Shown here: piece after piece, positions 2,378 to 59,501 of the stretch
Layout of the letters: every line of letters starts with the position of its first letter
Position numbering within the stretch: position 1 is the first letter of the stretch
From: Thiorhodovibrio litoralis
Lineage (GTDB): Bacteria; Pseudomonadota; Gammaproteobacteria; Chromatiales; Chromatiaceae
Direction: 5' to 3'
Length of the DNA: 64,000 bases
NCBI RefSeq assembly: GCF_033954455.1
Contig: NZ_CP121473.1
Location: forward strand, 2,900,501-2,964,500
Made by a program: the position numbers and the translations under genes
Notes under the pieces: model-generated
What the model saw: only the letters and a program-made list of their open reading frames with translations
What the model was told of the DNA's origin: nothing
Databases searched by the model: none

Positions 2378-2947
2378 CTACAGCAAGCCTGTCGCTGTCG
2401 TGCTCGGGGCGATCAATATCAGCAGTTGCACGACGCGCTCGGACAACGCTTTTGCGCTCAATTTTTCCAGCAGGGATCCTGGCAGGTGCTCGGTGGCGAT
2501 CGGCGGCATCAACAGACCAGCCAAGGATCGAAAGCAGCGGGTTTGCACAAACTGCTCACGCCACCAGTGCTGCCACCGCCGCAGGGTTTGGACGGTGACA
2601 CCAAGCGTCTTGATCAAGCGCCGGCGACGCGATGCGCTCAGTCCGTCATGCAGGGCCGAAATCAGCACGACGATGACCCCGAGATAGACCTTGCGGCCCA
2701 GAAACCGAACGGAAGGCGGGGTGCTGCGCCGCCGGCACCCGTCCGCGGCACAGCAGAAACTCAGACGGCTCTGGTAGCTCTCATCCAAGACGCCACGCAC
2801 AACACCTCGGGGCTTACGCGGATAACGGGCGCTGTGCAACGCACCACCGCAGTCACAGCCGCCCGCGCGGACTTCCTCGGCAATCGACTCGTCGATCCGG
2901 GTGAGCAGTTGGTAAAAGTTCGTGTCGGCAAGAAAGGCGTGACACAC
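2378..2947 (-). CDS. Transposon-associated protein of unknown function
   Basis: I do not recognise this 189-residue protein. It lies 93 bases upstream of the transposase on the same strand and is probably the first gene of the same element. It contains a short cysteine cluster (CDCGG) and a second pair (FCCAADGC), suggesting a zinc-binding knuckle, then a helical basic segment (SASRRRRLIKTLGVTVQTLRRWQHWW) that reads like a helix-turn-helix. I chose the GTG at 2947 because an AGGAG lies nine bases upstream on the minus strand. A DNA-binding accessory or regulator of the transposon is a reasonable inference only. Confidence 0.6.
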   Translation of the reverse strand: MCHAFLADTNFYQLLTRIDESIAEEVRAGGCDCGGALHSARYPRKPRGVVRGVLDESYQSRLSFCCAADGCRRRSTPPSVRFLGRKVYLGVIVVLISALHDGLSASRRRRLIKTLGVTVQTLRRWQHWWREQFVQTRCFRSLAGLLMPPIATEHLPGSLLEKLSAKALSERVVQLLILIAPSTTATGLL

Positions 2948-2952
2948 TGGGA

Positions 2953-2986
2953 CTGTCTCCTGGTTTTTGGCGAAATTCGGAGACAG
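2953..2986 (-). promoter_or_regulatory. Inverted repeat covering the ribosome-binding site of the transposon gene
   Basis: CTGTCTCC (2953-2960) and GGAGACAG (2979-2986) are a perfect 8-bp inverted repeat. In the minus-strand transcript the second arm contains the GGAG that serves the GTG at 2947, so folding would hide the ribosome-binding site in transcripts entering from outside. This mechanism is known for several IS elements; here it is an inference from position. It could instead be part of the transposon end or a repressor site. Confidence 0.4.
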
Positions 2987-3029
2987 CCCTCTCGGACAAC
3001 TTGCGTCAAGTTGTTTGAGGGGGTTTTTT
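2987..3029 (+). terminator. Terminator-like hairpin with T run
   Basis: ACAACTTG (2996-3003) pairs with CAAGTTGT (3007-3014) around a three-base loop. An outer CCCTC/GAGGG pairing (2987-2991 with 3017-3021) follows, then six T residues (3024-3029). On the plus strand this has the form of a rho-independent terminator. No real plus-strand gene ends just before it, so it may stop antisense transcription leaving the element, or be a piece of an older unit. Confidence 0.45.
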
Positions 3030-3139
3030 GTTTTCCCTCACTGAATTTGCTCAGAATCGCGGCCGATTCCCGCAAATAGTCTGCTCAGGCTCACCAGGGT
3101 GCACGGCTGTCCGAGACCATCCTGCAATCGGCTTAAAAC

Positions 3140-3729
3140 AACTTCCGCTCGCATTTCGGTCCGGACGTCCTGCGCAATCTTGATGGCGAAGACCTACTGA
3201 ACACCATGCACCGCCACGGCAGTCAGGACAGCCTGGTGTATTGGCTTGAGTTCAAGAACGACGATGAGCTGCCTGCGGTCTTTGGTAGCATTGCCGGTGG
3301 CAGTGCGCTGAAGTTCGGGCTCTACAATCGCAAGGAAACCGGCCAATGGATGAGCGGCTCCTCGCAACAACAGACGGTCCTCAGTCTGCCCGATGCAATT
3401 GCCTTGGCGCGCAAACATCACGATGAGTTGTTGACCGGCGTTGAACAATTGGACACCATGCCGTCTGAGCCCAAGCTCGCAGACTATCAGGCGCTTCAAG
3501 CCGCGATGGATCGCGTGGCGCCAACGGTCAGCCGGCTGGCCTGGGGGCATAAGTATTTCAGTCTGCTGTTTCAGACCGGCTCGACGACTATCACTCATCG
3601 CCCTATCAGCTGTTTCATCTGATCAAGCTGTTGCAGGACCCACCCCCGGTCGATGAGCGCTATGTCGCCGCCTGGTATTTTCTGACCATCGCAGCCGCTT
3701 TGGACGGCGTCTCTCTATCGGCTGCCTAA
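3140..3729 (+). pseudogene. Remnant of a McrB-like AAA ATPase, N-terminal part, frameshifted
   Basis: The frame FRSHFGPDVLRNLDGEDLL continues without a start codon into LLNTMHRHGSQDSLVYWLEF and on to WGHKYFSLLF. These are conserved strings I associate with the N-terminal region of McrB-like AAA proteins of restriction/defence loci. At about 3570 the frame is lost; one frame over, the reading continues as DRLDDYHSSPYQLFHLIKLL up to a TAA at 3727-3729. So a single-base indel broke the gene, and both the 5' start and all the ATPase motifs are missing. The transposon to its left probably removed the 5' end. The family name is from memory of the motifs, hence moderate confidence; the pseudogene status is clear. 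Confidence 0.6.
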
Positions 3730-33731: not shown

Positions 33732-35126
33732 CTAGCCGCGCCGCCAGCGCGAACCGCTCGCGCCATCCTCGAGCTGAATGCCGGCCTGCTGCAATTCATC
33801 GCGGATACGATCGGCCTCAGCGAAATCCTTGGCTTGCCGCGCCTGGGCGCGGCGCGCGATCAGGTCCTCGATCTCCTTGTCGCTCGGCCCCTGCTGCACG
33901 GCATTGGTCTCCGGGCTGCCGCGCAAATAGGCATCGGCATCGTCCTGAAGCAGGCCGAGCGTGGCGCTCAGGCGGCGGCCCTCGGCCGCGAGCGCGGCCG
34001 CCGCTGGCGGGTCGCTATCGCGCAGTCGGTTGACCTCGCGCGCCATGTCAAACAGCGCAGCCAGTGCCTCGGGGGTGTTGAAGTCATCGTCCATGGCGGC
34101 AGTGAAACGCTGCCGGTAGCTCTCACCGCCAGCGGGCTCAGCAGCCGGCAGTCCGCGCATCGCAGTATAAAGCCGAGTCAGAGAAGCGCGTGCCTGCTCC
34201 AGATTGCTCTCGTCGTAATTCAGCGGGCTGCGGTAGTGGCTGGCGAGGATAAAGTAGCGAATCTCCTCGGGCCGGAAGCGCGTGAGAATCTCCCGCACGG
34301 TGAAGAAATTGCCCAGCGACTTGGACATTTTTTCATCGTTGATGCGCACAAAGCCATTGTGCATCCAGACATTGACGAAAGGCTCGCCGGTCGCGCCCTC
34401 GGACTGGGCGATTTCATTGTCGTGATGCGGAAACTGCAGGTCCGCGCCGCCACCATGGATGTCAAAATGATTGCCCAGGCAATGAGTGGACATGGCCGAG
34501 CATTCGATATGCCAGCCCGGTCGCCCCGGCCCCCAGGGCGACTCCCAGGACGGCTCGCCCGGCTTGACCGCTTTCCAGAGCACGAAGTCGAGCGGATCGC
34601 GCTTGTGCTGATCGACCTCAACGCGAGCGCCGGCGCGCAGATCGGCCGGGTCTTTGCCGGAGAGCCGCCCATAGCCAGGAAAGCTCGCCACCTTGTAGTA
34701 GACATCGCCATTGTCGGCCGCGTAGGCATGACCGCGCGCGATCAGACGCTCGACCATGGCCAAAATCTCACCGACATGGGCAGTCGCGCGCGGTTCCAGC
34801 GTCGGCGGGCGCACGCCAAGCAGCGCGGCGTCTTCATGCATCGCGGCGATGAACTGATCCGTCAGCGCGTCGATTGCAACGCCCTGCTCCGCCGCGCGCG
34901 CGATGATCTTGTCGTCAATGTCAGTGATGTTGCGCACATAGGTCACGTCAAAGCCTAGGTGGTGCAGGTAGCGGAAAACCATGTCAAACACCACCAGCAC
35001 CCGCGCATGGCCAAGGTGGCAGTAGTCGTAGACCGTCATGCCGCAGACGTACATGCGCGCCTTGCCAGGCTCCAGCGGTTCGAACGGCTCTTTGCGTCGA
35101 GTCAGGCTGTTATGAATGTGCAACAT
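33732..35126 (-). CDS. cysS: Cysteinyl-tRNA synthetase
   Basis: 464 residues, normal length. The class I signature HIGH appears as HLGHAR after [12 protein letters not shown]; the zinc ligands include that Cys and the [19 protein letters not shown] region; KMSKS is exact ([15 protein letters not shown]). The C-terminal helical domain ends GSRWRRG. It charges tRNA-Cys. It runs opposite to ppiB and lpxH, its usual neighbours, but here the AlbA/ParA pair lies in between. Confidence 0.98.
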
Positions 35127-35469
35127 CCGCGTATTCGCTCACAAGCTCAGGAAACAGCGCGCCATGCTAGCAAAGCAGCGGACCTGCAAACAATGCGCAA
35201 CGCCAGGAGCGCAGTCACCGGTGCAACCCTTCGAGTCCCCGTCGAGTTGCCAGCTAACGCACTTGCGGAGCCGCCACTCTCAGTGTCAGCGAAAGGCGGC
35301 TCGAGGCATCTGGCGTGGCGAAAACGGAGAAGTGTCACGTCCCCTCGGCGTTTTCGATACCATGCTGTCGATGGTTGTTCGGACTGGTTTCTGCGAGGTT
35401 GAATGGCCGTTTCGAACCACGTAGCAGCGTTTACAATCCAAGCAAATTCCTACCCAAGCTTCAATCGTC
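35127..35469. other. Intergenic stretch, no gene supported
   Basis: This 343-bp gap between divergent genes contains one side's promoter for cysS and one for the AlbA-like gene. I found no convincing tRNA, hairpin or conserved frame. A short stretch near 35170-35200 looks a little like part of a tRNA-Cys but does not fold. Confidence 0.5.
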
Positions 35470-36660
35470 ATGAACAAAGCTGAGCTATATCGCACCGAGA
35501 CGGACCGCATCGAATGGAAGCGCTCGCCTCAGGACAGCGACGGCATCCTGCGTGCTACTTGCGCCTTGGCGAACGACCTCGGCGGGAGCGGCGAGCCTGG
35601 CCGGCTAGTTATCGGGCTGGAAAAGGACGTTTTCCGGCGCGGAGTCGACGCAGAGCGATTGGATCAACTTCAGCAGGACCTATCGAGCAGACTGCGCTCG
35701 ACCAAGATCCAGCCGACGCCAAGCTTCGACATTTCCGTCGATCACGGGGATGATGGCGTCACCCTCCTGGTTATCACCGTCATTCCTTATCCGGTTCCGC
35801 CGATGGTGATGGTAGATGGCGTTGCTTGGGTTCGCCAGGGCAGCTCGACCCGCCGCGCGACCCAAGCTGACCTGCTGCGCTTGAACGAGCGCCGTCCTGA
35901 GCACAGCCAACCCTTCGATCTTCGCCCGATCGCCGCGGCTACCCTTCAGGATCTCAATCTAGGCCTGCTCCGAGCTAGGTACGAAACCGAGCGCGACGAA
36001 GACCTCGACGAGGAGACCTTTCCCGGCTTGGAGCAATGGCTGACTCAGCGTCAGTTGGGCCGCCTGGTCACCAGGATCTGGCGCCCGAACCCGGCGGCGC
36101 TCTTGCTCTTTGGTGTGAGCCCGCAGTCCTGGCTGCCCGGGGCCACGGTCGAGTTTGTACGCTACGCGGGACCGGACATCGATAGCGAGGTGGTGGCCCG
36201 CAAGACGGTGACTGGAACCCTGGCGGATCAGCTGGAGGGAGTTTGGGCGCAGATAACCGCCCATCTCGCCTCTGCACCGGATCATCGGAAAAACGATGGC
36301 ATCGTCGAACGTTATCTTCCGCAGTATCCAATTGAGGCGCTGAAAGAATTGGCTCGCAACATGGTTCAGCACCGCATGTACGAAGGAACCCACGCGCCTG
36401 GACGCATTGAATGGTTCAATACGCGCATCGAGTTTTCAAATCCGGGTGGCCCGTTCGGGCGCGCGAGCGAGGGCGAGTTTGGAGAGCATTCCGACTACCG
36501 GAACCCCATCGTGACGGCCGGTCTGGTAGACATGGGTTATGTGCAGCAGCTCGGGCGGGGCGTTCGGCGCGTGCGATTGCTCCTGGAGCGCAACGGCAAC
36601 CCGCCGCTGGAGATCGAAAAAGATGGCTTCACGCGGTTGATCCTGAGAGCTCGACCATGA
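35470..36660 (+). CDS. AlbA-like (Schlafen-type) ATP-binding protein
   Basis: 396 residues. The N-terminal 140 form an AlbA_2/Schlafen-like domain: RIEWKRSPQDSDGILRATCA, ANDLGG, GRLVIGLEKD, and a VAWVRQGSSTRRATQADLLR end. After it comes a region resembling an HATPase_c_4 module (ELARNMVQHRMYEG, RIEWFNTRIEFSNPGG, GLVDMGYVQQLGRGVRR). Proteins of this class are annotated as putative DNA/RNA-binding regulators, some of them in defence loci. The stop overlaps the ATG of the ParA-like gene (ATGA), so the two products are made together. Confidence 0.85.
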   Translation: MNKAELYRTETDRIEWKRSPQDSDGILRATCALANDLGGSGEPGRLVIGLEKDVFRRGVDAERLDQLQQDLSSRLRSTKIQPTPSFDISVDHGDDGVTLLVITVIPYPVPPMVMVDGVAWVRQGSSTRRATQADLLRLNERRPEHSQPFDLRPIAAATLQDLNLGLLRARYETERDEDLDEETFPGLEQWLTQRQLGRLVTRIWRPNPAALLLFGVSPQSWLPGATVEFVRYAGPDIDSEVVARKTVTGTLADQLEGVWAQITAHLASAPDHRKNDGIVERYLPQYPIEALKELARNMVQHRMYEGTHAPGRIEWFNTRIEFSNPGGPFGRASEGEFGEHSDYRNPIVTAGLVDMGYVQQLGRGVRRVRLLLERNGNPPLEIEKDGFTRLILRARP

Positions 36661-37730
36661 AATCGATCGTCTTCTTCAACAACAAGGGGGGAGTCGGTAA
36701 GACGACCTTGACCTTCAACATTGCACATATGTTGGCTGGACGTGGGGTGCGGGTGGTCGTACTCGACTTCGACCCACAGTGCAATATCTCCGCGATCTTT
36801 CTCGACGAGATCCGACTGTTCGAGATTTGGGAGGATGTGCGCAGCGATGCTACGGTGACCGGTTGCTTAGAGCCGGTGCGCAGGGGTAAGGGGGACGTGC
36901 TGCCGCCGCGCTTGGAGCGCGTTGCCGATGGACTCTGGTTGCTGCCTGGACACCTGGCACTCAGCCGATTCGAGCAGACTTTGGCGGAGGAGTTCGCCAA
37001 GACGCTGGCCTCGGACAATGATCGGGCGCTCGATGTGACGACGTCGCTCGATCTGCTGTCGAATCTCGCCGCCGAGCAGGTAGCGGCGGATGTGATGATC
37101 ATGGATCTTGGCCCCAGTCTGGGCGCCCTCAACCGGGCCGCGCTGCTCGCTTGCGATCACCTGGTGCTTCCGGTGGCACCAGATCTGTTTAGCTTACAGG
37201 GACTCCGCAACGTCGGGCCGACTTTGCGCGAGTGGCGGCGCGACTGGGGCACTGTTCGTGAGCGTGGTCTCGCCGGCAAGCCCCAGGAGGCATTGCCCCC
37301 TCATGATTTCCTGCCGCTCGGTTACATGGTCCAGCAGCATCTTGCCCGGGCTGATCGACCCGTCGCGGGTTACGCCCGTTGGGCGCAGGCCATCCCCGCA
37401 GAGTATCGCCGATCCGTTCTGGATGAAGCGCCTAGTCAAACTGCGGTTTCCTTCGAGCAAGACGAGCATTGTCTTGCCCTGATCCCGCACTACGCCAGTC
37501 TGGTCCCGATTGCCCAGCAGGCACGTAAGCCGATCTTCGATCTCAAGCAGGCCGACGGCATCGGTGGGGGGCAGATTCAGGCCGTGGCACGCTGTCGGGA
37601 CAACTTCAACCAAATTGGCGAGCAGCTGTTGGAACGGCTCGGGATCGAGGCGCCATGGATCCAACGATCTCGACAGCCGGTCGCTCCCGATAGCCCTGAG
37701 CATGGACAGAGCGCTGAGGCGTGGCGGTGA
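36657..37730 (+). CDS. ParA-like ATPase
   Basis: 357 residues from the ATG overlapping the upstream TGA. The deviant Walker A (NNKGGVGKTTLTFNIAHML) includes the signature lysine of the ParA/MinD class; Walker A' VVVLDFDPQCNIS and Walker B VMIMDLGPSLGA follow, then LPVAPDLFSLQGLRNVGPTL. There is no ParB gene or clear centromere nearby, so plasmid partition is unlikely. The paired AlbA-like gene suggests a two-component unit of unknown purpose, possibly for defence or DNA positioning. A 250-bp gap follows in which I see nothing. Confidence 0.9.
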   Translation: MKSIVFFNNKGGVGKTTLTFNIAHMLAGRGVRVVVLDFDPQCNISAIFLDEIRLFEIWEDVRSDATVTGCLEPVRRGKGDVLPPRLERVADGLWLLPGHLALSRFEQTLAEEFAKTLASDNDRALDVTTSLDLLSNLAAEQVAADVMIMDLGPSLGALNRAALLACDHLVLPVAPDLFSLQGLRNVGPTLREWRRDWGTVRERGLAGKPQEALPPHDFLPLGYMVQQHLARADRPVAGYARWAQAIPAEYRRSVLDEAPSQTAVSFEQDEHCLALIPHYASLVPIAQQARKPIFDLKQADGIGGGQIQAVARCRDNFNQIGEQLLERLGIEAPWIQRSRQPVAPDSPEHGQSAEAWR

Positions 37731-37981
37731 CCCAACGGGGCGCAAAGACGCGGATGCAAGTACGTAGATCTCATGCGAGACGCCTTGCACTTGCGCCTTG
37801 CTCTGCTTCGCGGTGTCGCGCTCAGCAGCGAGCAGATGCGCACCTGCGGAGCCTGTCCTGGAGGCGTCCCGCATCGCCCGTGTTATCGACAAAGAGCTGC
37901 AACAGTCAGTAGGATAGCTGCGTCCAAAGACTCCGCGGTATCACGAAGCCGCCAACACTGACCTGGGAAGCACTGCAATCC

Positions 37982-38470
37982 ATGATCAAATTCACAACCA
38001 ACCACGGCGATATCCTGATTGAGCTCGACCACGACAAGGCTCCGGAAACCTGCGAGAACTTCGAGCAGTATGTCCGTGATGGCCATTATGACAACACCAT
38101 CTTTCACCGGGTGATCGATGGCTTCATGATCCAGGGCGGGGGCATGGCAGCGGATTTTTCGCAAAAACCGACCCGTGACCCGGTCAAGAACGAGGCCAGC
38201 AATGGGCTCAAGAACGTCGCCGGTGCCGTCGCCATGGCCCGCACTGCGGACCCGCATTCGGCCTCGGCGCAGTTTTTCATCAATGTGTCCGACAATACCT
38301 TTCTCGACCACCCCGGGCAGGACGGCTGGGGCTATGCCGTTTTCGCTCGCGTGACCGATGGCATGGAGGTCGTCAATGCCATCAAGGGGGTGAAGACTGG
38401 AAACAAGCACGGCCACCAGGACGTTCCCCTTGAGGATGTCGTCATCCTCAAGGCCGAGCTGCTGGACTGA
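37982..38470 (+). CDS. ppiB: Peptidyl-prolyl cis-trans isomerase B
   Basis: 162 residues of a cyclophilin without signal peptide, hence cytoplasmic. Active-site strings are present: [14 protein letters not shown] (Arg and Phe), SASAQFFIN and [12 protein letters not shown]. The N-terminus [20 protein letters not shown] is as in PpiB. It speeds up proline isomerisation in folding proteins. It is followed by lpxH, the order known in gammaproteobacteria. Confidence 0.97.
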
Positions 38471-58772: not shown

Positions 58773-58847
58773 GGAGACCGGCACAGCTGCGGCCTGACCC
58801 GGCCGCCGCCCTCCGCAACGCCGCAGAAAGGACGCAGGCCGGTCTCC
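58773..58847 (-). promoter_or_regulatory. Inverted repeat forming a possible riboswitch expression platform
   Basis: GGAGACCGGC (58773-58782 on plus) and GCCGGTCTCC (58838-58847) are a perfect 10-bp inverted repeat 55 bases apart. On the btuB transcript the upstream arm is the conserved 3' edge of the riboswitch (GGAGACCGGC), so it can pair either inside the aptamer or with the downstream arm, which is followed by a T-rich run (CCTTATTTTG). This is what a ligand-controlled switch would look like. Confidence 0.55.
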
Positions 58848-59040
58848 GGGCTTGCGAGTGAAATACCGTCGTCATGCGATGAGCAGTCATCGCGGACGTG
58901 GCATCTGGATCACGACGCCTTCCCATGGTGCCGTCGGGACCAAGAAATACTTGGCCCGACCAACCACAGTGGCCTATGTCGCGATCGCTACTCGCCTACC
59001 GTTGCGGGGGCAGCGCCGGAATTGCGGTGATGTTTTAGAC
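58838..59040 (-). promoter_or_regulatory. Cobalamin riboswitch upstream of btuB
   Basis: Reading on the minus strand: ACATCACCGCAATTCCGGCG, then the B12 box GCTGCCCCCGCAACGGTAGG, GCCACTG (about 58967-58973), GGGAAGGCGTCGTG, and the 3' conserved GCCCGGAGACCGGCC. This is the full order of the AdoCbl/cobalamin riboswitch. It lies about 170 bases upstream of the btuB start and should reduce expression of btuB-cobUCS when cobalamin is present. Confidence 0.92.
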
Positions 59041-59060
59041 AAGGTCCGGGCCAGATAACG

Positions 59061-59501
59061 AGCGCGGGGGACGCCGTGAATACATCCCTTTAGGCTTGCG
59101 ATCGAATCCCTTCGATCGAACACCCCCGCGCACGTCATCTGGCCCAGACCCCAACGTCAACAATCGCTGGACCGGCTTCCCGTTTCAATTCGCACCCAGA
59201 TGAAAGACTGAGCAAAAAGGTGCGAATCACCTAGCGCCAATAGGGATTTAGACTAAGCTGGAAGACCTGCTGAGGTCAAACCGGCCTGATCGAACGGGCG
59301 GGACGGAAGCGCGGGCAGACGTCGGCCAGGTCTGCGAGCGGTGCGACCGATGAGAGCAGCACCCGTTTGCCCTGCGCGGCGGCCCCGCGCCCTTGGCAGG
59401 TCATCTGCTCGATTTGCTGCAAGAACCGCTCATGTCGGCGCGCACCGGGTTCAGGCTCGATCTTGGGGGTGTGACGCGCAGATGGCCATGATGCGCGCGG
59501 G
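59061..59501. other. Intergenic region upstream of the riboswitch
   Basis: Contains the btuB promoter region and a palindrome-like TTCGATCGAACA-type stretch near 59100-59125. On the minus strand 59275-59490 an open frame without start codon reads RRHERFLQQIEQMTCQGRGA and ends SIRPV; I do not recognise it and treat it as a possible decayed gene end. Confidence 0.45.

Follow-up and report, generated by a model that had tools for sequence, protein, structure and literature searches.

What is a gene for a Schlafen/AlbA-type protein, joined to a gene for a ParA/Soj-like ATPase, doing between cysS and ppiB in the single-contig 5.47-Mb genome of the purple sulfur bacterium Thiorhodovibrio litoralis? 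The pair, here called A and B, lies in a 64,000-nucleotide stretch (contig NZ_CP121473.1, positions 2,900,501–2,964,500; G000:C1:2900501-2964500 in our numbering, where G denotes genomes and L loci), hereafter the window. A preliminary description made from its letters named the genes cysS, ppiB and lpxH, labels that we retain, and proposed that the pair might be an unnoticed defence or stress unit. We find that A and B form a real, conserved two-gene operon, acquired horizontally. With a probability of roughly 0.6, they constitute a mobile effector/regulator unit following abortive-infection or toxin–antitoxin (TA) logic, in which A is a Schlafen-type effector and B a ParA-type regulator.

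The genes cysS and ppiB are divergent, and in the window 2,855 bp separate their start codons. This spacing was compared across 17 stretches around ppi genes from 16 genomes, one stretch being the window itself. A cysS start is present in 11 of them, all from other genomes, and the nearest ppi gene lies 103–540 bp away; in four of the 11 (L030, L033–L035) this is a second ppi copy, the better ppiB match being 748–830 bp off. Two genomes of the same genus have the site without the pair, with distances of 245 and 252 bp, and gene B was found in neither of them (0/2). B occurs in 6 of the 55 genomes searched, the window's own counted, which together with its absence from both congeners rules out a stable core feature of the clade.

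The inserted segment aligns by blastn with Thiorhodococcus mannitoliphagus (L012; 94.5% identity over 35420–37782) and with two metagenome-assembled genomes (L007, 90.8%; L008, 90.7%), and the flanks of these three loci do not align with those of the window. L007, which carries A and B, and the ppiB stretch L024 appear to share one genome, G017. Compared with this genome, the window shows dS of 0.29 for A and 0.25 for B, far below the 1.31 obtained for ppiB, and the pair has therefore moved horizontally. Thus, A–B is a horizontally acquired insertion between cysS and ppiB, and the preliminary description was right in regarding it as an interruption of cysS and ppiB-lpxH. The left edge of the shared segment is TTACAATCC, immediately 5′ of A; the right edge varies among the copies, those of L007, L008 and L012 being closer to each other than to the window. 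A search for transposon ends returned only 9-bp direct repeats at the segment ends; inverted repeats of at least 9 bp linking these ends were not found, nor was a DNA match to the segment in the plasmid collection.

Conservation of the unit was followed with a B profile of 15 rows, several of them SIR2- or HEPN-paired. It matched 13 of 274 Gammaproteobacteria genomes (E up to 1e-40) and 34 of 398 Pseudomonadota genomes (E up to 1e-50), two draws that may overlap and in both of which the window's genome is counted. The 47 stretches considered below comprise the 13 gammaproteobacterial places outside the window, 30 of the 36 such places in Pseudomonadota (six partial matches were excluded), three places from the 55-genome search and the window. 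A, whole or in pieces, stands directly upstream of B in 28 of the 47, and the gap equals −4 in 28 of 37 measured pairs. At 13 named B loci A is present 11 times (broken in L012 and L017, cut by the contig end in L009), including records from Myxococcales, Corallococcus and Vicinamibacteria. In the reverse direction, a search of 299 Pseudomonadota genomes with A gave 18 places above 280 bits, every one of them next to a B from the profile search; weaker matches include fragments of A adjoining B, and most are places where the profile had found no B, many of them in longer frames. The two proteins co-diverge: their pairwise distances correlate (r 0.92, 30 pairs; none of 2000 permutations reached this value), a coefficient inflated by shared ancestry, which the permutation test leaves in. 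dN/dS between the window and its relatives is 0.085–0.137 for A (five comparisons) and 0.055–0.102 for B (six), rough values since some dS exceed 1; by this computation both genes are kept under purifying selection. Wear does occur in the pair, as B is broken in L013 and A in L012.

Protein A matches Pfam SLFN_AlbA_2 (E 1.9e-10; 41.7 bits against a cut-off of 25.3) and HATPase_c_4 (E 1.5e-10); no helix-turn-helix (HTH) match was obtained in Pfam at E up to 1, no HEPN match and no NCBIfam match. The closest solved fold to its predicted model (mean pLDDT 84.0, pTM 0.59) is 3lmm (DIP2311; Z 18.2, 20% identity), with an rmsd of 10.7 over 334 residues, and therefore the likeness holds domain by domain. 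Residues 1–144 resemble SAMD9 (7ksp, Z 11.2; 9o0d, titled tRNase domain, Z 11.0) and also SLFN14, SLFN5, SLFN13 and SLFN11 at Z about 10 (for SLFN13, Z 10.0, rmsd 2.5, 108 residues aligned), and the C-terminal half is similar to histidine kinases and SpoIIAB (Z about 7; the arrangement is a common one). Residues E10, E15, N35 and D36 are invariant in all 31 aligned proteins. The five-residue spacing of E10 and E15 equals that of SLFN13 E205 and E210, an equivalence by spacing and not by residue-level superposition; alanine mutants of these SLFN13 residues are inactive (PMC5862951; this and the other papers cited were available in part, and statements resting on them are limited to those portions). 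A likely has nuclease activity.

Protein B matches Pfam AAA_31 (E 1.7e-25, scored on a longer 439-aa open reading frame, ORF) as well as CbiA/ParA profiles, and its Walker A lysines are conserved (K10 in 40 and K15 in 39 of 41 aligned proteins). Its predicted model (mean pLDDT 90.7, pTM 0.89) is closest to 3pg5 (DIP2308; Z 29.1, 30% identity) and resembles Soj/ParA proteins at Z 26–28 (9a6n: Z 27.9, rmsd 2.1, 248 aligned), although the core of B is roughly 70–90 residues longer than the compared Soj chains. The pairing of a Schlafen/AlbA domain with a ParA-type ATPase given in the preliminary description stands, whereas "positioning" as the function of B found no support. The structures closest to A and B, despite their low identity to them, both come from Corynebacterium diphtheriae and have tags three apart; their PDB names carry no function, and the tag numbers hint that DIP2311 and DIP2308 belong to one locus. 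Both ORFs were found where that description placed them. The start for B at 36411, from the ORF list, is mechanical; homologues and sequence place it at ATG 36657, running into the TGA of A (ATGA), which leaves an overlap of 4 nt.

The context of B relatives points to what the unit may do. Of the 47 stretches, 19 lack A; there the gene immediately 3′ of B encodes a SIR2 protein in five cases, HEPN in five and a RelA/SpoT-type protein in three; one ISP-type methyltransferase, one unrecognised gene (L129) and four loci with no partner make up the rest. Pfam upheld nine of ten scanned partner proteins (SIR2_2, HEPN_RiboL-PSP, RelA_SpoT), one of the nine from a plasmid, the tenth being that of L129; the partners in L098, L099, L119, L120, L122 and L123 were assigned by reading the sequences, that of L119 also by SIR2-type PADLOC matches. 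Seven B loci chosen from 40 rows of the plasmid collection have SIR2 (3), HEPN (1) or no recognised partner (3). In a tree of 58 B proteins (a "quick", unrooted tree without bootstrap, with two long branches, L124 and L100) 8 changes suffice to explain the partner labels, whereas shuffled labels require 24.7 on average. All eight SIR2-paired proteins fall on one side of a branch with support 99, all six HEPN-paired ones on one side of a branch with support 95, and a further branch of 33 rows (support 98) contains L091 and every one of the 32 AlbA-paired proteins; the RelA-paired ones occupy two places, and the seven partnerless rows need 4 changes. Since the tree sorts by partner label, B subclades have their own effectors.

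SIR2, HEPN and RelA/SpoT-type proteins recur as effectors in abortive infection and TA systems. If B is indeed a shared regulator of such proteins, A is most simply an effector as well. We propose that A would be a Schlafen-type nuclease, probably cutting tRNA or other RNA, with its GHKL-type domain possibly acting as a nucleotide-binding control domain. As long as the cell is uninfected, B would bind A directly, in a manner governed by the ATP/ADP state of B or by its DNA contact, and thereby keep A inactive; infection or DNA stress might change the state of B, and the released A would stop translation. In this scheme we infer the toxicity of A, RNA as its target, restraint by B and phage as the trigger.

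B relatives also occur in viral sequences; a single-sequence search of viral contigs yielded none, and they appear when alignments are used. Such searches gave 89 viral-contig loci, the B list being the best 80. Among the matches listed, 48 loci carry a B above 120 bits, and 21 of these have a recognised partner, namely HEPN (9), RelA (7), SIR2 (4) or AlbA (1; L165, gap −4). Of the records in the phage collection, 74 match B, and eight of these cover at least 80% of it at 26–30% identity. Phage Pf1 (L258, AY324828) has the ParA-like orf317 followed by an unannotated frame after 3500 that looks HEPN-like by eye, and in phage WX-TY (L259) a ParA-like gene precedes a HEPN_RiboL-PSP gene (Pfam match). 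In the P22-like phage SE1 (L260) a ParA-like B relative (2495–3568) stands alone between the cI repressor and gp24/sieB genes, and the gap after it holds no frame longer than 57 residues.

Several observations weigh against the proposed unit. The order is A–B here and B–effector in the SIR2, HEPN and RelA versions. Seven of the 58 B proteins in the tree, and 27 of the 48 on viral contigs (among the matches listed), have no partner recognised, in the latter case by profiles; B is present on only one of nine viral contigs found through A. The third Schlafen carboxylate is variable: position 53 is D in 13 of 31 proteins, the window's A included, and position 52 is D in 22 of 31 and K in the window's A. 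The title of 7ksp, a SAMD9 structure sharing this fold, names a DNA-binding domain, and therefore the fold of A is no proof of cleavage. The neighbourhood of A–B pairs was surveyed in 210 ORFs, 128 of them chosen by script and 105 of these scanned. Methyltransferases (4), response regulators (3) and phosphoesterases (3) occur most often among the 25 Pfam families listed out of 130, and the listed families are mostly metabolic or regulatory; PADLOC matched 32 families, of which the 25 listed occur in one or two proteins each, several being general helicases or polymerases. The defence-island setting raised in the preliminary description is thus unsupported by either scan, although the survey had no control set of neighbourhoods and for this reason neither shows nor excludes enrichment. 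What keeps a defence or stress role plausible is that B relatives lie beside SIR2, HEPN and RelA/SpoT genes and occur on viral contigs.

How B would act on A is a further question, as sequence alone cannot separate an antitoxin from an activator. B might instead be a sensor of phage DNA or replication that switches on a latent A, harmless on its own. DNA binding and a response to ATP are properties of ParA-fold proteins, the GHKL domain could keep A latent, and B relatives are present in phages and on viral contigs, all of which would suit a sensor. We nevertheless regard it as unlikely, since B proteins with altered Walker A motifs, RAGVGTT in L011 and KGGVGQT in L131, persist beside full-length A; these same proteins also count against the restraining role preferred above. 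A slightly less probable alternative is an orphan partition or stability module, with A a non-cleaving nucleic-acid-binding regulator and B a positioning ParA ATPase. The Soj/ParA fold and deviant Walker A of B agree with it, one paper describes AlbA_2 as DNA-binding (PMC6299218), and ParA near Abi genes has been read as a sign of a plasmid or mobile element (PMC5379612). However, no ParB-type gene adjoins the pair, whose neighbours are cysS and ppiB (the rest of the genome was not searched for ParB-type genes), in agreement with the missing partition partner noted in the preliminary description, and the window holds no site within 3 mismatches of one 16-bp parS consensus, which does not cover other parS types; parABS was rejected within this scope. 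Moreover, the pair sits between housekeeping genes of a 5.47-Mb contig, and in the sister subclades the place expected for parB is taken by SIR2, HEPN or RelA/SpoT genes. Plasmid pVPon1 has a separate annotated ParA–ParB pair 2.6 kb from its SIR2-paired B, and the ParA match that a true ParB gene does follow (L018, 10740–11600) is distant, at 27% identity, unlike the orphan B family. Finally, the pair could be a hitchhiker: neutral mobile cargo that now serves no function where it sits. The genome has a single B at E up to 1e-15, the tail of the window's B is altered relative to L012, L007 and L008, and broken copies exist elsewhere; but both frames are open, purifying selection marks their divergence, and the pairing persists far beyond this family, making a hitchhiker very improbable.

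The effector/regulator unit preferred here has predicted relatives in the literature. A dyad of a HEPN protein (MAE_18760 family) and a ParA/Soj-like ATPase was predicted as a TA system, with the ATPase as antitoxin to the HEPN RNase (Anantharaman et al. 2013, PMC3710099). Like it, A–B consists of two adjoining genes, one for a ParA/Soj-like ATPase and one of nuclease type, and the B family includes a HEPN-paired subclade, although the HEPN partners of B relatives are known as Pfam HEPN_RiboL-PSP. A differs in combining AlbA_2/Schlafen and GHKL domains, in lying upstream of B and in lacking a HEPN match. Bacterial Schlafen RNases that carry a fused minimal histidine kinase and winged HTH have been reported beside BREX, and bacterial Schlafens have been linked to anti-phage defence (PMC12839542); A shares the union of Schlafen and GHKL/histidine-kinase-like domains with these fusions, but has no HTH match and is partnered by ParA instead of BREX. 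Panacea/netFlax antitoxins (PMC8832971, PMC10440598) likewise use one antitoxin domain for many toxin types, but it is another domain, and ParA or Soj as whole words is absent from the main texts of both papers. Partition ATPases of the Soj/ParA type share the fold and deviant Walker A with B; B is set apart by its longer core, effector-type neighbours and lack of an adjoining ParB. In the open-licence PubMed Central literature, among the matches listed and judged by titles, abstract starts and counts, no Schlafen–ParA, SIR2–ParA or RelA–ParA dyads were found. "Unnoticed", as the preliminary description had it, therefore fits the Schlafen version and not its HEPN-paired sister. The Schlafen-partnered pair extends the predicted kind of ParA–effector dyads, for which we found no experimental test in the paper portions and listed matches covered.

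From gene context, we give an even chance to the broader idea that a single ParA/Soj-fold family serves as a general hub controlling immunity in bacteria and prophages, with every subclade in charge of an unrelated cell-stopping enzyme. The enzymes so governed would be a Schlafen RNase, a SIR2 NADase, a HEPN RNase and a RelA/SpoT-type alarmone synthetase. Were the hub real, "ParA partition protein" would be the wrong annotation for many orphans on chromosomes, plasmids and phages, whose true role would be in immunity or as antitoxins, and the partner swap over four effector types would provide a handle on what the ParA-type switch senses. The 2013 HEPN–ParA prediction would then extend to Schlafen, SIR2 and RelA/SpoT effectors, and bacterial relatives of Schlafen and SAMD9 proteins would gain a dedicated control protein.

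Table 1. Features of the A–B locus and of two related loci (window coordinates unless a locus is named).
Feature	Position	Strand	Remarks
gene A	35470..36660	+	396 aa; AlbA_2/Schlafen domain and GHKL-type domain; predicted effector
AlbA_2/Schlafen match in A	35497..35859	+	residues 10–130
HATPase_c_4 match in A	36403..36627	+	GHKL-like; residues 312–386
gene B	36657..37730	+	357 aa; ParA/Soj-fold ATPase; predicted regulator or antitoxin
deviant Walker A of B	36684..36704	+	KGGVGKT; residues 10–16
B tail	37653..37730	+	not common to L012, L007, L008, which end here; low model confidence
transferred segment	35431..37787	+	~2.36 kb; 39 bp 5′ of A, A, B, 57 bp 3′ of B
TACAAT	35432..35437	+	−10-like hexamer at left edge of shared segment; in the window, L012, L007, L008, L011
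cysS	33732..35126	-	left neighbour of the pair
ppiB	37982..38470	+	right neighbour of the pair; lpxH next
left flank repeat	35197..35358	-	82% copy of the 3′-terminal part of a gene that looks serine-hydrolase-like by eye
B relatives of L011 and L131	L011 2515–3513; L131 6001–6984		ParA-like, altered Walker A; adjoin full-length AlbA genes

Some features remain to be mentioned. The TACAAT hexamer may be part of a promoter, and it is absent from the output of a consensus promoter scan. The left flank repeat adjoins the inserted segment; its source lies in the same genome at G000:C1:909993-910151, and the copy is perhaps a recombination scar. In PADLOC, A from about residue 134 onward partially matched models associated with Argonaute (E 6.9e-12; at best 4.6e-21 in L131). 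An assignment to a known PADLOC system was rejected, since the matches are partial: for PDC-M28, B covers only 52 residues of the 438-position PDC-M28B model (E 2.5e-10), and of four other B proteins three matched over 35–39 residues and the fourth not at all. A distant A relative (29% identity) lies on a Klebsiella plasmid (L044, 5974–7134; the single record inspected of 44 plasmid records) inside a type I restriction operon, beside a TrlF family ATPase gene. In L124 an extra small gene overlaps B upstream. The unrecognised gene downstream of the B homologue in L129 (7039–7770) has no Pfam match and appears nucleotidyl-cyclase-like by eye. Elsewhere in the window, a cobalamin riboswitch is located on the minus strand at 58835–59233 (66.5 bits).

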